A stretch of 33,881 bases of DNA, taken from the IMG/VR virus record IMGVR_UViG_3300042891_001818, positions 1 through 33,881 of that record, one strand, 5' to 3'. The notes beneath the pieces are model-generated. The model ran no database searches, was not told where the DNA came from, and saw only the letters and a list, made by a program, of their open reading frames with translations. The DNA comes from a virus. The translations under genes and the position numbers were made by a program. Below are positions 2,785 to 31,915 of the stretch, one piece after another. The stretch's first letter is position 1; every line of letters starts with the position of its first letter.

Positions 2785-3818
2785 TACGTATTTAAAGTAT
2801 TATTTTTATATGCATCTACTTGTATATTATCATTAGTTAATTCTTTAAACAACGTTTCTAGATCCGAATCTGGAAGGCTATCATATAATGGTGTACAAAC
2901 TACGCCACTAGAATCTTGAAAACCAATTTTTACGATTGCTACTAATTTTTGTAGTAATTTTACAACAGAATCTGAATGAAGTAATGGTTCTTTGTCAGTC
3001 GATGAACCTAAATATATCGTAGGCGCATTAATCTCAACACTTTGTTTTGCATCAATAATTACAGAATCAGTTTTCGATTTTAAAATAATTCTATCTGCAA
3101 CTCCAATAAGTTGTGAATTTGAAAAACTAGATATTGATATTGTATTCGGCGATACTGGATTATTTGTAGTTAAATTATTTATACGTTGATTGCTAGTTAA
3201 ATATAAAGAAGCATAATCAGAGTTAACATCTTCTGTAACGTAATCTGCAGTTGTTTTATTTCTATTAGATAATATAATAATAGGATGTCCTGGATCACCT
3301 AGATAATTTGGTAATGCGTCAACTTTTGCTTTCGATGTATCAATTGAACTTCCAAAACGAATACTATTACCCCATCGACCTTCAATTATAGTATCACCTT
3401 CATATGCTTGAAGCATAGAAATTTCTTTGTCAACAAATGTATCAGTAGTTATAGAAGAATTACTTAAACCAGTTAATGCATTAAAATTGATATTTGAATT
3501 TACTGATAATGTAGTTAAATAATACCAACTAGGTTGCGGAGAGTCAATGTTCGAATCCTCTCGATATCCTATAAATATTAAAACTTGTTCTCCTACTACA
3601 GGAATTTTTTTTGAATTTATGTCAGCTGGTTTGATATTACTAATAACCGGAGAATATGTATCCGGTGTTATAATTTTACAACTAATTTCATATGCATGAT
3701 GTAATTTAGTAGTTTCTATAGATTCGCGTTGCGTTTTTAACGTATATGTTTCATTGTCAAATGCTGAAACTACTTCGGCAATATAAAATGATATAGGATT
3801 GCCGTATTCGCTATTCAT
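2784..3818 (-). CDS. Baseplate hub/central spike protein, T4 gp5-like (no lysozyme domain)
   Basis: This 344-aa protein resembles the OB-fold and spike parts of gp5-type hub proteins. An N-terminal OB-like region (about 1-110) has VVGEQVLIFIGY. It is followed by the diagnostic EGRWGNSIRFGSS (about 146-158) and DPGHPIIILSNR (about 174-185), which open the spike. Residues 215-275 hold short beta repeats (DRIILKSKTDSVIIDAKQSV, then EINAPTIYLGSS) typical of the triple-beta spike. No lysozyme domain is inserted, unlike T4 gp5. It would form the membrane-piercing tip of the tail. Overlaps its upstream neighbour by 8 nt. Confidence 0.8.
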   Translation of the reverse strand: MNSEYGNPISFYIAEVVSAFDNETYTLKTQRESIETTKLHHAYEISCKIITPDTYSPVISNIKPADINSKKIPVVGEQVLIFIGYREDSNIDSPQPSWYYLTTLSVNSNINFNALTGLSNSSITTDTFVDKEISMLQAYEGDTIIEGRWGNSIRFGSSIDTSKAKVDALPNYLGDPGHPIIILSNRNKTTADYVTEDVNSDYASLYLTSNQRINNLTTNNPVSPNTISISSFSNSQLIGVADRIILKSKTDSVIIDAKQSVEINAPTIYLGSSTDKEPLLHSDSVVKLLQKLVAIVKIGFQDSSGVVCTPLYDSLPDSDLETLFKELTNDNIQVDAYKNNTLNT

Positions 3819-4280: not shown

Positions 4281-4980
4281 AAAACGGCAATTTTATGAAG
4301 TCTGTTTGTTCGTATTGTTTAAATTTAGTTTCGTAAATTTGTTTGAGTGTTTTAATAACTCTAGTAATATTTGTTGTTTCGAGTCCCGTACGTTCTCGGA
4401 TAAAAATATACAAAGCTTTTTTATTAAAATCTTCTATACTTTCGCGTGTTTCAAATATATGAAGAATTGAATCAGCAACGTGGATATCAGTTGTGTTAGA
4501 AAATAATGAATTTAGATTATCATAACAATACGTAATATATGCATCCATAAAATATTGAAGAGTTTCTCGCATTTCAGAATTATGAATTTCAGTCATAATG
4601 TTTCGTTGTTCGTCTATATCTAAAGTTTGCGTGTCTTGTTTTAATTTTGCATAGCCCTTTTGATTTTCTGCAATAAGATAATTAAATGAAGTTCTAGTAT
4701 AATATGAATACGCTTTTCCGGCATCTGGATTAAATTTATCTAATCGAGCAGTTAAAAATGTAACCAAATCGGTTTGTAGATCATGAAATGAAGAATCAAT
4801 ATAATCAGGTTTCATTTTGTTGATTAGATTTTCAGCTAATTTCATAAACGCCGGATAAATAAATCTTCTATAGATTCGTTCTCTGCGTACTGTGCTATCT
4901 GTTTTGTTGTATCCAATAATAGCAAGTTCTGTTATTTTTGTAAAATAAACATTACTTTTCTTCTTCGCTCGCTTCGCCAT
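4279..4980 (-). CDS. Late-transcription sigma factor, T4 gp55-like
   Basis: This 233-aa protein has the layout of T4-type late sigma factors. A region-2-like core (about 40-110) includes FMKLAENLINKMKPDY, then FLTARLDKFNPDAGKAYSYY and the aromatic patch YTRTSFNYLI, comparable with KFNFSGY and YKNPHAYITQACFNAF in T4 gp55. Such factors direct host RNA polymerase to late promoters together with the sliding clamp. The hydrophobic C-terminus (TDFIKLPF) could be a clamp-binding tail; that is inference. ATG at 4980 is preferred to the TTG just before it. The start overlaps the upstream gene by 29 nt. Confidence 0.72.
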   Translation of the reverse strand: MAKRAKKKSNVYFTKITELAIIGYNKTDSTVRRERIYRRFIYPAFMKLAENLINKMKPDYIDSSFHDLQTDLVTFLTARLDKFNPDAGKAYSYYTRTSFNYLIAENQKGYAKLKQDTQTLDIDEQRNIMTEIHNSEMRETLQYFMDAYITYCYDNLNSLFSNTTDIHVADSILHIFETRESIEDFNKKALYIFIRERTGLETTNITRVIKTLKQIYETKFKQYEQTDFIKLPF

Positions 4981-23467: not shown

Positions 23468-23533
23468 GAAATGTTTACTTTTTTTTACAGCAGAAATCCG
23501 ACACCTTTCGATGCCGGATCCTACCGAGATATA

Positions 23534-24076
23534 TTATTGAGAGATATGTTTACAATTTTCAAAATGCCATCGTTTCAATTGAGGCTCGCCTCCTTCTGTA
23601 CCACAGTGAGGGCAGATCGCTCTATTTCGTGGCACTCCTTTATACTTACTAGGTACGCCTTTGTTCCATGCTTTAAACCCGGGTTGATGCGTTGCGTGGT
23701 TTGCTAATTGCTCTTCGTTTAATTTAAGTCCTTTATTCCAAGCCGGCCTACCTTTATATGTTCTACTTAAATGTTCTCGAGCATATGCATATGATGATGC
23801 TGATGCAATGTGACGATCATGCCATTCATTACTAGGACGACACATATTCCAGAATGCAAATGCTATTCTTTTACTGGTAGGATATATCAATGTTAATAGC
23901 CGATGACATATGAAATGTTCTTTTGCAGTTAATAGTATAACATTATCCGGAGTATCCTTACCTTTCAAACAACGTGGAAGGATGTGATGCTTTTCATAAT
24001 AAACACCACATCCTTTTTTTCTATTTTCTTTTTTTGCTTTTTCTATAATAGCATTATATATTCTTTCAGCGTTCAT
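23534..24076 (-). CDS. HNH homing endonuclease, second copy
   Basis: This 180-aa protein is related to the nuclease at 7510-8157. It has YEKHHILPRCLKGKDTPDNV, then LLTAKEHFICHRLLTLIYP (HNH residues), and a middle with repeated AWNKG motifs (RPAWNKGLKL, KAWNKGVPSKYKGVP) of the NUMOD3 type. The C-terminal finger is CPHCGTEGGEPQLKRWHFENC. Starts at the same point (M-x-x-x-x-I-x-x-A-I-I-E-K-A). It lies downstream of the AAA ATPase gene without its own early promoter. Mobile gene. Confidence 0.87.
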   Translation of the reverse strand: MNAERIYNAIIEKAKKENRKKGCGVYYEKHHILPRCLKGKDTPDNVILLTAKEHFICHRLLTLIYPTSKRIAFAFWNMCRPSNEWHDRHIASASSYAYAREHLSRTYKGRPAWNKGLKLNEEQLANHATHQPGFKAWNKGVPSKYKGVPRNRAICPHCGTEGGEPQLKRWHFENCKHISQ

Positions 24077-24106: not shown

Positions 24107-25045
24107 TTAAACACTTAGGATCTGTTCTGCTATCATCATTTTTGGATTATCAAATCCCATTGCACATATCCTTGCCGCTTTGATAAAACTTCTGAGGTTA
24201 ATCTCTAAGCCTTCAAACTCTGCATCCAATTCCTTCATTAACTCTAATGCTTGGTGCTTAGCTGCTGCAGGAATGCGTGACTCCATTTTGTCAATCAATT
24301 GCTCCATTCTAGCAAACATTTGATCCGTTGTCAAATCCACATCTGCTACAAAGCTACGGCTTCGGATTGCCTCATCCAATTTGCTTTGGCTAATGTTGGA
24401 TATGAATATTATTCTGCCTGTGAATTCAAAATGACGAGGTACCTCGGATCCGAACTCATCCTTAAGCGCTTTGCTTGTTATGTAAGATATCTTTCGAGTG
24501 TCATAAGAGTCTAATGCTCCCTTAAGGATATTAACTGCATCATCGTCACGGAATACTGAATCACAGTCATCCAATACAATAATCTTGTCGGAGTTCTCAT
24601 ATAGCGTAATAAACAAGCCGGCTGCTGTGGCACGACCCTTGAAGTGAACAAAGTCATATGACTCTCTTAAGCCCATACCTTCTAAGGTACCTTTTACTAG
24701 GTGTGTCTTGCCCATTCCGGCACCTCCGGTAATTACTAGTGACGGTTGGATTCCTTTGCCTACCATTTTAGTCAAGCGCTCAATATTGTCAAACATTACC
24801 TGCGGATCCTGCTGCTGCTTAACTGACATAAATGACAGCTTCTGTGGTGCACTTGAAGCCGTTGACTGCGCTGCTGGCATACGTGTTACTCTGCCATTTA
24901 CTCCTACAAACAATACCTCATTGTTCTTCTCAGCATTTAATAACTGGATGTGGCGGATAACATCCTTTCCTGCAATCTCTCCGGTTGCAACATTCTTTCC
25001 GAATAACTTTCCTTTAATTCTAACTGGCTTAAAAACATTTGTCAT
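24107..25045 (-). CDS. AAA-family ATPase
   Basis: This 312-aa protein has a complete AAA core. Walker A GGAGMGKTH is at 107-115, Walker B IIVLDDCD at 155-162, sensor 1 in IIFISNIS at about 212-219 and candidate arginine fingers in AIRSRSF. The first 75 residues form a separate small domain with GVNGRVTRMP. The Walker B is DD rather than DE. Partner unknown; phage AAA proteins of this sort may load or remodel replication or transcription complexes. Own early promoter and leader. Confidence 0.82.
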   Translation of the reverse strand: MTNVFKPVRIKGKLFGKNVATGEIAGKDVIRHIQLLNAEKNNEVLFVGVNGRVTRMPAAQSTASSAPQKLSFMSVKQQQDPQVMFDNIERLTKMVGKGIQPSLVITGGAGMGKTHLVKGTLEGMGLRESYDFVHFKGRATAAGLFITLYENSDKIIVLDDCDSVFRDDDAVNILKGALDSYDTRKISYITSKALKDEFGSEVPRHFEFTGRIIFISNISQSKLDEAIRSRSFVADVDLTTDQMFARMEQLIDKMESRIPAAAKHQALELMKELDAEFEGLEINLRSFIKAARICAMGFDNPKMMIAEQILSV

Positions 25046-25487: not shown

Positions 25488-25632
25488 AATTTATTTGTTT
25501 GCAAAAGTATAACACATAATCTGCAAATGCCATTTCCAATTTGGTTGATTGAGTTGTGATTCTATTTATGAATACTAAAGGATATACTGCCAATAAGCCT
25601 AACCCCAATACTATTATTTTGATTATTTTCAT
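25486..25632 (-). CDS. Small membrane peptide, 48 aa
   Basis: Reads MKIIKIIVLGLGLLAVYPLV then a polar C-terminus: one N-terminal transmembrane helix. Leader AAAAGAGAGAC precedes the ATG. It follows the acidic 141-aa gene by 68 nt with no clear separate promoter. Confidence 0.55.
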   Translation of the reverse strand: MKIIKIIVLGLGLLAVYPLVFINRITTQSTKLEMAFADYVLYFCKQIN

Positions 25633-25700
25633 ATGTCTCTCTTTTACGTCCGCAAGGGCCAACATTGCTGCTGACCCGGGGACTATGTTGAGAGATATGT

Positions 25701-26126
25701 TTACTCTTCCGGTGAATCTTGCTCTGCTTCAATTTGTGTCTCTATCTGTGTTTCTGGATCCACATCGACGATAACACCTTCTTCGTCTTCTTCGTCTTCT
25801 TCCATTATAAATTCATCTAATGTTGCGGTAACATGATCCATAATATCCCGGACATTAACATCAGCACTTGTCAATGAAATCTCGTTCCTGTAACTAAGTT
25901 CAAACTCAGCTGAATCAAAATCAATTAAACTATTTGAATTGTAATCTAAGCATCTTTCAATTCTGTCAGCAATGTTTTCTGCCGTCTCTTCTGTTATGCC
26001 AAACACTTTCTCAACTCGCACTTCGGGTTCCAAACTTTGGATAAGTGCAATTACATTGTCGATTGATACTACTGAGGTTAGCGCCTTTGCTCCCTCTAAC
26101 TGCGCAATTAAATCTGCTTTTTTCAT
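25701..26126 (-). CDS. Unknown acidic early protein, 141 aa
   Basis: Not recognised. Opens MKKADLIAQLEGAKALTSVV, followed by a helical middle with GITEETAENIADRIERCLDY. The last 35 residues are almost all acidic or Gln (EEDEEDEEGVIVDVDPETQI). Own early promoter and leader (AATAAGAGAGT). Confidence 0.6.
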   Translation of the reverse strand: MKKADLIAQLEGAKALTSVVSIDNVIALIQSLEPEVRVEKVFGITEETAENIADRIERCLDYNSNSLIDFDSAEFELSYRNEISLTSADVNVRDIMDHVTATLDEFIMEEDEEDEEGVIVDVDPETQIETQIEAEQDSPEE

Positions 26127-26475: not shown

Positions 26476-27216
26476 TTACAAGTATTGTTCCAACAATTTA
26501 ATACCCGGTAAGCTTCTCAATGACTGCTCGCCTAATCTAACCAATTGTCGTGCACGCTCTCCTGTGATATTCAACTCCTCAGCAATTTGCTCCATTGGCT
26601 TAGCATACTCATAGCCGATCCCATAATTCATACACAATGCAATGCGTTGCTTCTCCGGGATCTGACTCAATGCTCTTTGCAAGTCAAACACAAAGTCTGC
26701 CTTATCTCTGCTTGATTTGGTTGCCTCAGCTTCTAAGAATCGATCTGCATATGTTTCCTTGTTCTCATCATCGCCTACCGGAGTGTGGATGCTCTTGATG
26801 CTTTGGGTTTCGGTTGCTGTCTTATGGGAAGGGATCCTAACAACGCGGGATAAATCATTCAATGCCTTTTGCAACTCGGCACGGATATACCACACTGCAA
26901 AGGTAATGAATTTGAAGTCTTTATTGGTATCGAATCGATCCACAGCCTCAAACAATCCTACATTGGCAAATGCAATTAAGTCCTCTAACTCTAATCCCAT
27001 TCCCTGATAACCTCGTGCTACCTGGATCGCAAATCGCAAATTTGCTTTGACGATCATGTCACGCGCTTGGATATCACCTGCCTGTGCTGCTATTAATAAT
27101 GCCTTCTCATCAGCCTTGCTTAAGGTTGGTGCTTTCTTTGTCTCTTTGACATACTGACGGATACTTGCTGTTTCTGTTACAATTGCTCCGTTACTTACAT
27201 TGATTCTTTTTGCCAT
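26476..27216 (-). CDS. RNA polymerase sigma factor, SigA/RpoD-like
   Basis: This 246-aa protein has region 1.2 (ASIRQYVKETKKAPTLSKAD), region 2 (VKANLRFAIQVARGYQGMGL, LEDLIAFANVGLFEAVDRFD, FKFITFAVWYIRAELQKAL) and region 4 (IPEKQRIALCMNYGIGYEYA, then a helix-turn-helix ITGERARQLVRLGEQSLRSL). Region 3 is shortened, and the protein is smaller than the usual 287-aa Bacteroidota SigA. It would redirect host polymerase, perhaps to middle promoters. It has its own early promoter. This is a second sigma factor besides the gp55-like one. Confidence 0.9.
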   Translation of the reverse strand: MAKRINVSNGAIVTETASIRQYVKETKKAPTLSKADEKALLIAAQAGDIQARDMIVKANLRFAIQVARGYQGMGLELEDLIAFANVGLFEAVDRFDTNKDFKFITFAVWYIRAELQKALNDLSRVVRIPSHKTATETQSIKSIHTPVGDDENKETYADRFLEAEATKSSRDKADFVFDLQRALSQIPEKQRIALCMNYGIGYEYAKPMEQIAEELNITGERARQLVRLGEQSLRSLPGIKLLEQYL

Positions 27217-30400: not shown

Positions 30401-30748
30401 TTAAAAGCCCCTGCGCAAATCTCCTTCTCTATATGTCTTAACGCCGTTTTGCATAGCTTTAAACTTTCTATAAAAATAGTCACTTAAGTCTTCGTATGCC
30501 TCCTTTGCTGCAGCATATGCATAATACTCCGGAGCTTTAGTAAAACCAAAATTAGCTTTTTCTTGCTCCGGGGTTCTCCATCTATACTTTACAGCCTCGC
30601 AATGCATTGTGTGCGCTAACTTTTGGAATAATGCTAATGCATCTGCTAAATCCTCCTGCGTAAAGCCTTTGCTTTGTTTTGCATTGTAAATTGCTTTGCC
30701 GGATCCGGTAACTCCTATTTGCGTTTTGACTGACTTAAACTTTTGCAT
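30401..30748 (-). CDS. Unknown early protein, 115 aa
   Basis: Helical protein with GVTGSGKAIYNAKQSKGFTQ near the start (the GSGK is too short and isolated for a P-loop) and aromatic helices (YYAYAAAKEAYEDLSDYFYR). Own promoter. No family recognised. Confidence 0.6.
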   Translation of the reverse strand: MQKFKSVKTQIGVTGSGKAIYNAKQSKGFTQEDLADALALFQKLAHTMHCEAVKYRWRTPEQEKANFGFTKAPEYYAYAAAKEAYEDLSDYFYRKFKAMQNGVKTYREGDLRRGF

Positions 30749-30765
30749 ATCTCTTATTTTTTAAT

Positions 30766-30859: not shown

Positions 30860-30997
30860 AAAAAAAGCACCCGGGAATAAGAGAGAAACCCGAGTGCCGA
30901 GACGCGCCTGGAAATAAGAGAGAGAACCAGGTCACATAATGTGTCGTGGGATCAACTGTGTTCGGAGCGCAATTGCATCCTGTGGTCGTGATCCCAC
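30860..30997 (-). ncRNA. Structured RNA with leader-complementary loops and terminator
   Basis: Three consecutive hairpins on the minus strand. The first, 30997-30946, has a perfect 9-bp stem (GTGGGATCA/TGATCCCAC). The second, 30931-30907, is CCTGG/CCAGG with loop UUCUCUCUCUUAUUU. The third, 30897-30867, is GCACTCGGG/CCCGGGTGC with loop UUUCUCUCUUAUU and then seven T, a good terminator. Both loops are complementary to the AAUAAGAGA leader of the early genes. It would be the 3' part of the transcript starting near 31150, which also encodes a 29-aa peptide. Confidence 0.55.
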
Positions 30998-31045
30998 TAT
31001 ATGGTAGGTCGAGCACATAGGCTGCGATCCCTTGTTATTTTAATA

Positions 31046-31135
31046 TTAAATGCTCCAGGCAATTGCTACTGCTACCGCACCTAGCCATCCTGCAATGGAT
31101 AATATGATCAACGTCTTATCAAATACTTTATTCAT
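31046..31135 (-). CDS. Very small membrane peptide gene, 29 aa
   Basis: MNKVFDKTLIILSIAGWLGA then VAVAIAWSI: one transmembrane helix with a short basic N-terminus. Leader AAATAAGAAGATAG before the ATG. It lies at the 5' end of the transcript that ends in the structured RNA. Confidence 0.48.
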   Translation of the reverse strand: MNKVFDKTLIILSIAGWLGAVAVAIAWSI

Positions 31136-31150
31136 CTATCTTCTTATTTA

Positions 31151-31205
31151 CACTTATATTATAAGGAATCGATCCCGTACGTCCAACCAAAAACCAAAAA
31201 AAGTT
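31151..31205 (-). promoter_or_regulatory. Early-type promoter (variant, copy 18)
   Basis: GTTG-GACGTACGGG-N10-TATAATAT, spacer 20. It keeps the boxes and spacing but not the conserved GATCGCATTG. It would drive the 29-aa peptide and structured RNA. Confidence 0.58.
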
Positions 31206-31250
31206 TACTCTGTATAGCTAGTGATCTGAACTAAATATGCGTTTAAGGGG

Positions 31251-31397
31251 CTAAAAATAGGTATGGACTAAAAATAGGACTAAAAATAAGACCACTCCTT
31301 CTAAAAATAACAAGGGTATTTTTTCTAAAAATAGCCTGATTTCGTCTAAAAATAACCCGGGGAGGAGTGGATATCCCGGATATTGCTCTAAAAATAG
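31251..31397 (+). repeat. CTAAAAATA array, cluster A (7 copies)
   Basis: CTAAAAATA begins at 31251, 31268, 31280, 31301, 31325, 31346 and 31388, all on the plus strand. Spacing from 31280 is 21, 24, 21, 42. Four copies end in G (CTAAAAATAG, a partial palindrome) and three in A. No gene is seen from 31136 to 32080. Confidence 0.88.
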
Positions 31398-31465
31398 ACT
31401 ACGCATATACACGCTATACGTACATGATCAGCACTATACGCACTATATACATGATACCAGGTTAC

Positions 31466-31516
31466 TCTCTATATATACGAGAATGCATCTAAAAGCAAAT
31501 ATGCTATATATAGAGA
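31466..31516. repeat. 12-bp inverted repeat between array clusters
   Basis: TCTCTATATATA (31466-31477) and TATATATAGAGA (31505-31516) are perfect complements; an inner GCAT/ATGC pair extends the stem. It ends directly at the first repeat of cluster B. Confidence 0.72.
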
Positions 31517-31615
31517 CTAAAAATAGATCAGCAATTGGACTAAAAATAAGACCACTCCTTCTAAAAATAAAAACGCATATTGCCCTAAAAATAGGCGATA
31601 TTGGTCTAAAAATAG
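31517..31615 (+). repeat. CTAAAAATA array, cluster B (5 copies)
   Basis: Copies begin at 31517, 31540, 31561, 31585 and 31606. The last four repeat the exact 21-24-21 spacing of cluster A, while the spacer sequences differ. The stretch from 31538 to 31570 is almost identical to 31278-31310, with ACCACTCCTT in both. Confidence 0.88.
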
Positions 31616-31791
31616 CCTGTTCCCTTATCCGCGCCATACAGTTCGTTTAAGAACATCGAGGCACGTATTAGGCCAAGTATCCAACAGGAAAGGGATATAG
31701 AGACTATGCCCCGTAAGATTAAGTAGGACCGGTAGGGATATATATAACCTATCTTGCTGAATGCTACTAGACACTAAACACACAATTTCGT

Positions 31792-31915
31792 CTAAAAATA
31801 AGACTAGTACTTTTACTGTCATTCGGACTAAAAATAACACGGGGTGGGGAAGATACTAGACTCTGGGCTAAAAATAAGGTACCTAGTAACCTGGGTAATG
31901 AATACGTAAAAATAA
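31792..31915 (+). repeat. CTAAAAATA array, cluster C (3 copies plus a variant)
   Basis: Copies begin at 31792, 31828 and 31868, and GTAAAAATA at 31906: spacing 36, 40, 38. From 31916 to 32080 there is only T-rich sequence with many TACTT and ATTACTT repeats and no gene. Confidence 0.82.

Follow-up and report, generated by a model that had tools for sequence, protein, structure and literature searches.

Can one RNA, encoded by a phage, address the translation initiation regions of a whole class of that phage's own genes? The question is raised by a locus in an IMG/VR virus contig, analyzed here as a window of 33,881 nucleotides (33.9 kb, 34% G+C), the genes of which lie mainly on the minus strand. 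The original prediction placed at this locus a minus-strand RNA ending in two hairpins, the loops of which would be antisense to a leader common to the early genes. Related phage contigs reach up to 160-173 kb, and the phages that carry the RNA are large and uncultured.

Early genes and their leader

The early genes occupy 22.8-30.7 kb of the window, with one or two beyond. They mostly follow one layout, in which a promoter-like TTATCTTTATATAAATTA is followed by AAAAATAAGAGAT or AAAAAGAGAGAAT and then directly by ATG; the leader is also written as AAUAAGAGAU, and no recognizable Shine-Dalgarno sequence is found in the leaders. Among these genes are an AAA-ATPase gene (24107-25045), a distant homolog of T4 nrdC.10 with about 29% identity, and near it a sigma factor gene (26476-27216) and an HNH endonuclease gene (23534-24076, minus strand). 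Since TATCTTTA with an upstream TTG resembles the Bacteroidota -7/-33 consensus, we infer a Bacteroidota-type host. Ribosomes of such hosts ignore Shine-Dalgarno sequences: Bacteroidia keep their anti-Shine-Dalgarno sequestered and choose start sites by upstream adenines and low structure (PMC9976891), a mode of initiation that an A/G leader would suit.

Architecture of the RNA locus

Everything that the original prediction described, from the promoter-like site to the two hairpins with their loop sequences and the tail of seven T, is present on the minus strand. The promoter-like element (31153..31186, minus) reads TTGGAC ... TATAATATAAG, with TGGACG-16-TATAAT at 31185 to 31158, and is kept in relatives as GTTGGAT-N18/19-TTNCATATNATATAAGTGTAA; the transcript is expected to start near 31150. 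The description of a hairpin-ended RNA stands, and to it must be added a small open reading frame in the 5' half (31046-31135, minus), which would encode a 29-aa small membrane peptide, MNKVFDKTLIILSIAGWLGAVAVAIAWSI, and has its own leader, AAATAAGAAGATAG. In this 5' part several relatives encode different short hydrophobic peptides, but in others an ORF is not evident, and a peptide cannot therefore be the function that the loci have in common.

The first of the antisense hairpins, hairpin A (30907-30931, minus), has the form CCTGG-TTCTCTCTCTTATTT-CCAGG with the loop UUCUCUCUCUUAUUU, which at 30912..30926 (minus) is the complement of AAATAAGAGAGAGAA; its uninterrupted stem is 5 bp in the window and 6-7 bp in some relatives. 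The second, hairpin T (30867-30897, minus; GCACTCGGG-TTTCTCTCTTATT-CCCGGGTGC), is at the same time an intrinsic terminator with its seven-T tail at 30860-30866 (minus), and its loop, UUUCUCUCUUAUU, is the exact complement of AATAAGAGAGAAA. The 3' 150 nt of the RNA are predicted to fold as exactly hairpins A and T. When the full 289 nt are folded, the minimum free energy structure keeps the terminator hairpin only, and the whole-RNA z-score is -1.8.

Between the ORF and the hairpins lies a structured domain (30946-30997, minus) with an outer stem, GTGGGATC/GATCCCAC, and an internal loop containing invariant ACCACA and AACAC. The outer stem covaries, with double changes in six of its seven pairs, and the internal loop within this covarying stem is common to ten RNAs. 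The domain corresponds to no Rfam family; it may serve as a protein-binding site or stabilize the folded RNA. It is seen in relatives at L038 5182, L041 2881, L043 2035, L047 4402 and L049 5219. Another conserved domain of the same transcript, GGGTCCGGGATC...GTGCTCGAAAGACAC..CCCGGCGGATC, is apparently a GAAA-capped stem; it is degenerate in the window and is carried by L003, L004, L007-L009, L033, L038, L041, L043 and L047 (in L047 at about 4480-4540).

Complementarity between loops and leaders

In the window, about 18 early genes and almost no late ones are preceded by the loop complement, AAUAAGAGA or AAAGAGAGA. An example is the leader AAAAATAAGAGAT at 30749..30761 (minus), which abuts the ATG of ORF 30401-30748, the early gene that comes first after the RNA. 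The word AATAAGAGA occurs 12 times in the window, against 0.7 expected from shuffles: ten copies are on the minus strand, nearly all of them at gene starts and directly 5' of ATG, and the two plus-strand copies are the complements of the two loops. All seven copies of AAAGAGAGA in the window are likewise on the minus strand. The loop UCUCUCUCUUAUU unites the complements of the two leader classes, AAUAAGAGA and AAAGAGAGA, so that a single loop can recognize either type. The stretches of loop and leader that can pair are AU-rich and 7-11 nt long, and the candidate targets lie across about 10 kb, apart from the RNA locus, as is required of a trans-acting small RNA. A further 62 early ORFs carry the leader motif although no promoter is recognized at them, which argues that it works in the message and not only as promoter DNA.

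Perfect loop complementarity of at least 8 nt was found for 17 of 30 early minus-strand ORFs and for one of 36 late ones, which bears out the antisense relationship originally proposed for some 20 messages. The case against chance, which had been made from two like loops in different stems, rests instead on conservation in relatives. Of 1000 trials with base-shuffled loops, 28 (2.8%) do equally well, the mean being 5.7, and since loops and leaders are both of low complexity, one genome is insufficient; within it, the complementarity is only moderately significant.

Conservation of the loops and covariation of the stems

Relatives were gathered as 41 IMG/VR contigs from two protein searches, each encoding a close relative of the ATPase, with the distant L058 left out; L059, of the same phage group, was added by a separate pattern search. 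In the relatives the antisense hairpin or a variant of it lies on the same strand, 4.0-7.7 kb upstream of the AAA-ATPase gene, and of the contigs that extend 6.4 kb or more upstream of the gene, all have it but L010, L050, L052 and L057. The same hairpins were found in L002-L005, L007-L009, L014, L015, L033, L034, L038 and L041-L043, and further in L046-L048, L055, L056 and L059; variants occur in L036, L045, L049 and L053. At the equivalent place in the four divergent relatives the RNA is absent, and a weaker leader is retained there, which suggests that the leader has a role of its own.

Loops that vary freely under constant leaders in related phages would have spoken against the original prediction. 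The opposite was seen. The 8-nt loop core, CUCUCUUA, is invariant in 17 of 17 aligned hairpins and the GG/CC closing pairs are conserved too, whereas the stems are wholly different among relatives (CACTCGGG/CCCGGGTG, GGTGCTGG/CCAGCACC, GCATTAGG/CCTAGTGC, GGGTTGG/CCAACCC and others). The covariation that the original prediction called for is present in the form of compensatory stem changes around a loop sequence that is kept. Among 19 hairpins and seven pairs, 125 of 133 cells are paired in register and 21 standard pair types occur, whereas moving the partner by one leaves 81 and 72 cells paired; as the sequences are related, the cells do not represent independent events. Distance from the loop was used to assign the pairs, as MAFFT misaligned the stems of hairpins with unequal loop lengths, which differ among phages by whole CU repeats. 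G-U cells outnumber A-C cells in the stems by 12 to 0, which indicates that it is the early-gene strand that has been selected to fold.

The distribution of the loop sequence is equally restricted. In the 140-170 kb relatives with the RNA, UCUCUCUUA, and likewise TCTCTCTTA, is confined on the early-gene strand to the RNA, and the opposite-strand copies of both fall in the early block as leader complements. The 19-nt loop with its closing GG/CC pairs occurs in nine of 2.9 million IMG/VR contigs, all of this phage group. The conserved element in relatives appears to be a distinct, terminated and structured RNA, as had been proposed from the window. Being conserved in relatives, and not drawn from a single genome, the observation is certain: the architecture, strand, conservation, complementarity and position of the RNA are established here.

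Two variants carry the antisense property in other forms. L045 has a 12-bp hairpin of unrelated architecture with a 29-nt loop, UUUCAUAUCUCUCUCUUAUCAUAUCUCUU, that is complementary to the leader plus AUG twice, and L053 has CAUAUCUCUCUCU beside a terminator, with a pairing site that takes in the AUG. Judged from these sequences, unrelated architectures converge on the antisense property, and it is this property, not one sequence, that is kept. The hairpin loop and CAUAUCUCUC, which matches the leader plus AUG, occur together in the RNAs of L038, L041-L043 and L046. In L041, a partial second antisense loop with one stem arm (ATCTCTCTTATTTCCAGCACCC) lies at 3517-3560, about 460 nt downstream of the hairpin, and is apparently a decayed duplicate.

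One clade gives a hint that loop and leader change together. In L042 and L046, the loops of which end in UUAUCU, GATAAGAG leaders account for 6 of 19, against 4 of 77 (Fisher p 0.004, from two related genomes and uncorrected for kinship), which is suggestive only. Duplex energies computed across genomes gave no strong preference of loops for the leaders of their own genome; this matrix of own and foreign loops is confounded by loop length, and the leaders share one core.

Antisense elements after stop codons

A second kind of antisense element is found within the early block. TAAACATATCTCTC, the complement of GAGAGATATG (leader plus AUG), stands directly after a stop codon at 25683..25703 (minus). 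The element at 25630-25703 is predicted to fold over the leader and start of the next gene (25630-25644), around a nested hairpin, with a predicted energy of -30 kcal/mol for 81 nt, and in this model it looks like a translational-coupling switch. Another copy of TAAACATATCTCTC lies at 23531..23552 (minus), at the stop of the HNH endonuclease gene, and in relatives it follows the AAA-ATPase gene.

The form TAAA-CATATCTCTC, likewise a complement of GAGAGATATG, is present at both of these window sites and is conserved across the group directly 3' of the stop codons of particular early genes (L003 9378; L006 1830 and 3132; L014 6425 and 7595; L043 8727 and 10951; and others). In relatives a CATATCTCTC element is directly 3' of the ATPase gene; in the window the HNH homing endonuclease gene sits between the two, as though it had been inserted there with the element staying in place downstream.

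Proposed function and alternatives

We consider it likely that the locus encodes a multi-target antisense RNA of about 280 nt that represses translation initiation of the phage's own early genes. Such an RNA would be transcribed in the early-gene direction from the promoter near 31150 and ended by the last hairpin. Its two hairpin loops, with a further CAUAUCUCUC in several relatives, would contact the purine-rich leaders of some 15-20 early messages, the AUG included in some phages. The pairing would cover the initiation region and so, most likely, block ribosome loading and/or lead to message decay, and the RNA would act as a timer, closing the period of early protein synthesis by feedback. 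That the RNA is transcribed, that it pairs in the cell, that the outcome is repression and when this happens are all four what we infer. Repression is favored because a loop covering the leader should block initiation, as RNAIII loops do at Shine-Dalgarno sites (PMC2837412), and because T4 acts at the same step with proteins, of which RegA was not found in five long relatives.

Pairing with the leaders might also protect or activate the messages, for example by shielding their 5' ends, or might give immunity against superinfecting relatives. This is unlikely, though the leader is common to the whole group, so that the RNA would recognize a relative's messages, and though its gene heads the early block. 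The pairing site lies over the initiation region, in L045 and L053 also over the AUG, and in described cases such pairing usually represses (RNAIII, PMC2837412).

A different possibility is that a phage or host protein binds the invariant pyrimidine loops, and that the complementarity is a by-product of purine-rich leaders. Shuffled pyrimidine loops do frequently match purine leaders, and the closing GG/CC pairs and the ACCACA/AACAC domain are conserved along with the loops. A protein site would not account, however, for different registers of antisense, complement of the AUG included, in the unrelated hairpins of L045 and L053, for an invariant core that matches the leader core exactly or for loops that change in length by whole CU repeats, and we regard it as improbable.

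It is very improbable that the hairpins do no more than terminate a short mRNA for the membrane peptide, as ordinary terminators without a role in trans. The last hairpin is a textbook terminator with a small ORF 5' of it, but several relatives keep the RNA without an evident ORF, the second hairpin is not a terminator, and the keeping of loops and not of stems is the reverse of what a terminator needs. A plus-strand decoy RNA, in which AAUAAGAGAGA loops would titrate a leader-binding factor, is scarcely credible and was rejected, for although the leader motif does lie within the same hairpins on the plus strand, it is the minus strand that has the conserved promoter, the terminator and its T tail, and that the 12:0 ratio of G-U to A-C cells favors.

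Should the antisense reading hold, a single RNA would turn off a whole temporal gene class through a common antisense address, a logic of whole-class shut-off for which phages are otherwise known to use proteins (RegA, RegB). For phages of Bacteroidota-type hosts, as this one's host probably is, it would explain in a testable way how early messages are marked and controlled, and would offer a natural template for multi-gene RNA switches.

Comparison with known systems

In the best reading, the RNA works like the Staphylococcus RNAIII loops or T4 RegA, and is homologous to neither. S. aureus RNAIII uses conserved hairpin loops to pair with ribosome-binding sites and repress several messages, and it encodes a short peptide (PMC2837412). 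Like RNAIII, the UCCC-loop Rsa RNAs and E. coli CyaR, the RNA described here is structured, with conserved loops (at least two) complementary to several initiation regions. Those RNAs, however, are bacterial and have C-rich loops directed at Shine-Dalgarno sequences, whereas this one is phage-encoded, with CU-rich loops directed at a phage purine leader. For a peptide like that of RNAIII, the candidates are the putatively coding 29-aa ORF of the window and, in some relatives but not in others, short ORFs of hydrophobic character. Membership in RNAIII is not indicated, as the loops are CU-rich and no Rfam RNAIII match was found in the window or the relatives searched.

T4 RegA and RegB turn off many early messages at translation initiation regions (PMC3014915); they act at the same step but are proteins, whereas here the factor would be RNA. 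RegA (PF01818) was found in none of five long relatives, several of them possibly fragments (T4 positive control, E 2.3e-75). RegB (PF10715) gave no match in the relatives in a search run without a positive control, and its absence is not claimed. Whether repeated antisense loops and post-stop elements together form a lineage-wide RNA-RNA regulon, controlling the early class in place of RegA-like proteins and probably in hosts independent of Shine-Dalgarno sequences, seems to us evenly balanced.

Phage RNAs that block phage messages by pairing include P22 sar, lambda OOP, P1 c4 and PAK_P4as15, and phage-encoded trans-acting RNAs include PreS (LPR1), VpdS, DicF, AgvB and AsxR (PMC12197685). The former are each described with one locally encoded target, in contrast to the shared leader of many dispersed genes; the latter, several of them Hfq-dependent, act mainly against host messages or small RNAs, whereas the targets here would be the phage's own early genes. 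The original prediction knew of no such phage RNA, and a literature search of partial coverage agreed, with no described phage RNA addressing a leader that many phage genes have in common. The CsrB/RsmZ sponge RNAs, which titrate a protein, also repeat a hairpin with one and the same loop; their loops mimic the ribosome-binding site (GGA), whereas here the loops are its complement. Trans-acting RNAs directed against ribosome-binding sites are already known, and what appears to be new is that a phage encodes such an anti-initiation RNA and directs it at a leader regulon of its own making.

Rfam 15 gave no match in the window at the gathering threshold (a permissive threshold gave sub-threshold noise only) and nothing but tRNAs in eight relatives, and near and distant BLAST searches against 50,697 phage records left the RNA unmatched. 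The loop pattern had three matches in bacterial genomes, without hairpin context and about the number expected by chance. A double-loop pattern run over IMG/VR found the hairpin pair confined to contigs of the group, and its other matches were discarded as chance occurrences in other contexts.

Sequences upstream of the RNA promoter

Fifteen copies of TATTTTTAG lie on one strand ahead of this promoter (31259-31876, minus), with one more elsewhere in the window. A count of antisense 9-mers with reversed and complemented controls was unusable, being dominated by AT-rich words such as CTTATTTTT in these repeats. In relatives, arrays of TATTTTTAG that include TACTTTTAG variants likewise stand ahead of the early block, even in L010, L050 and L057, which are without the RNA. 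Finally, the word CTAGCTATACGGAGTAA is conserved across the phage group 50-100 nt upstream of the RNA promoter and is sometimes repeated; it is found near 31220 (minus) in the window and at L002 659, L003 4699, L005 4926 and 5173, L010 7048 and L047 4153.
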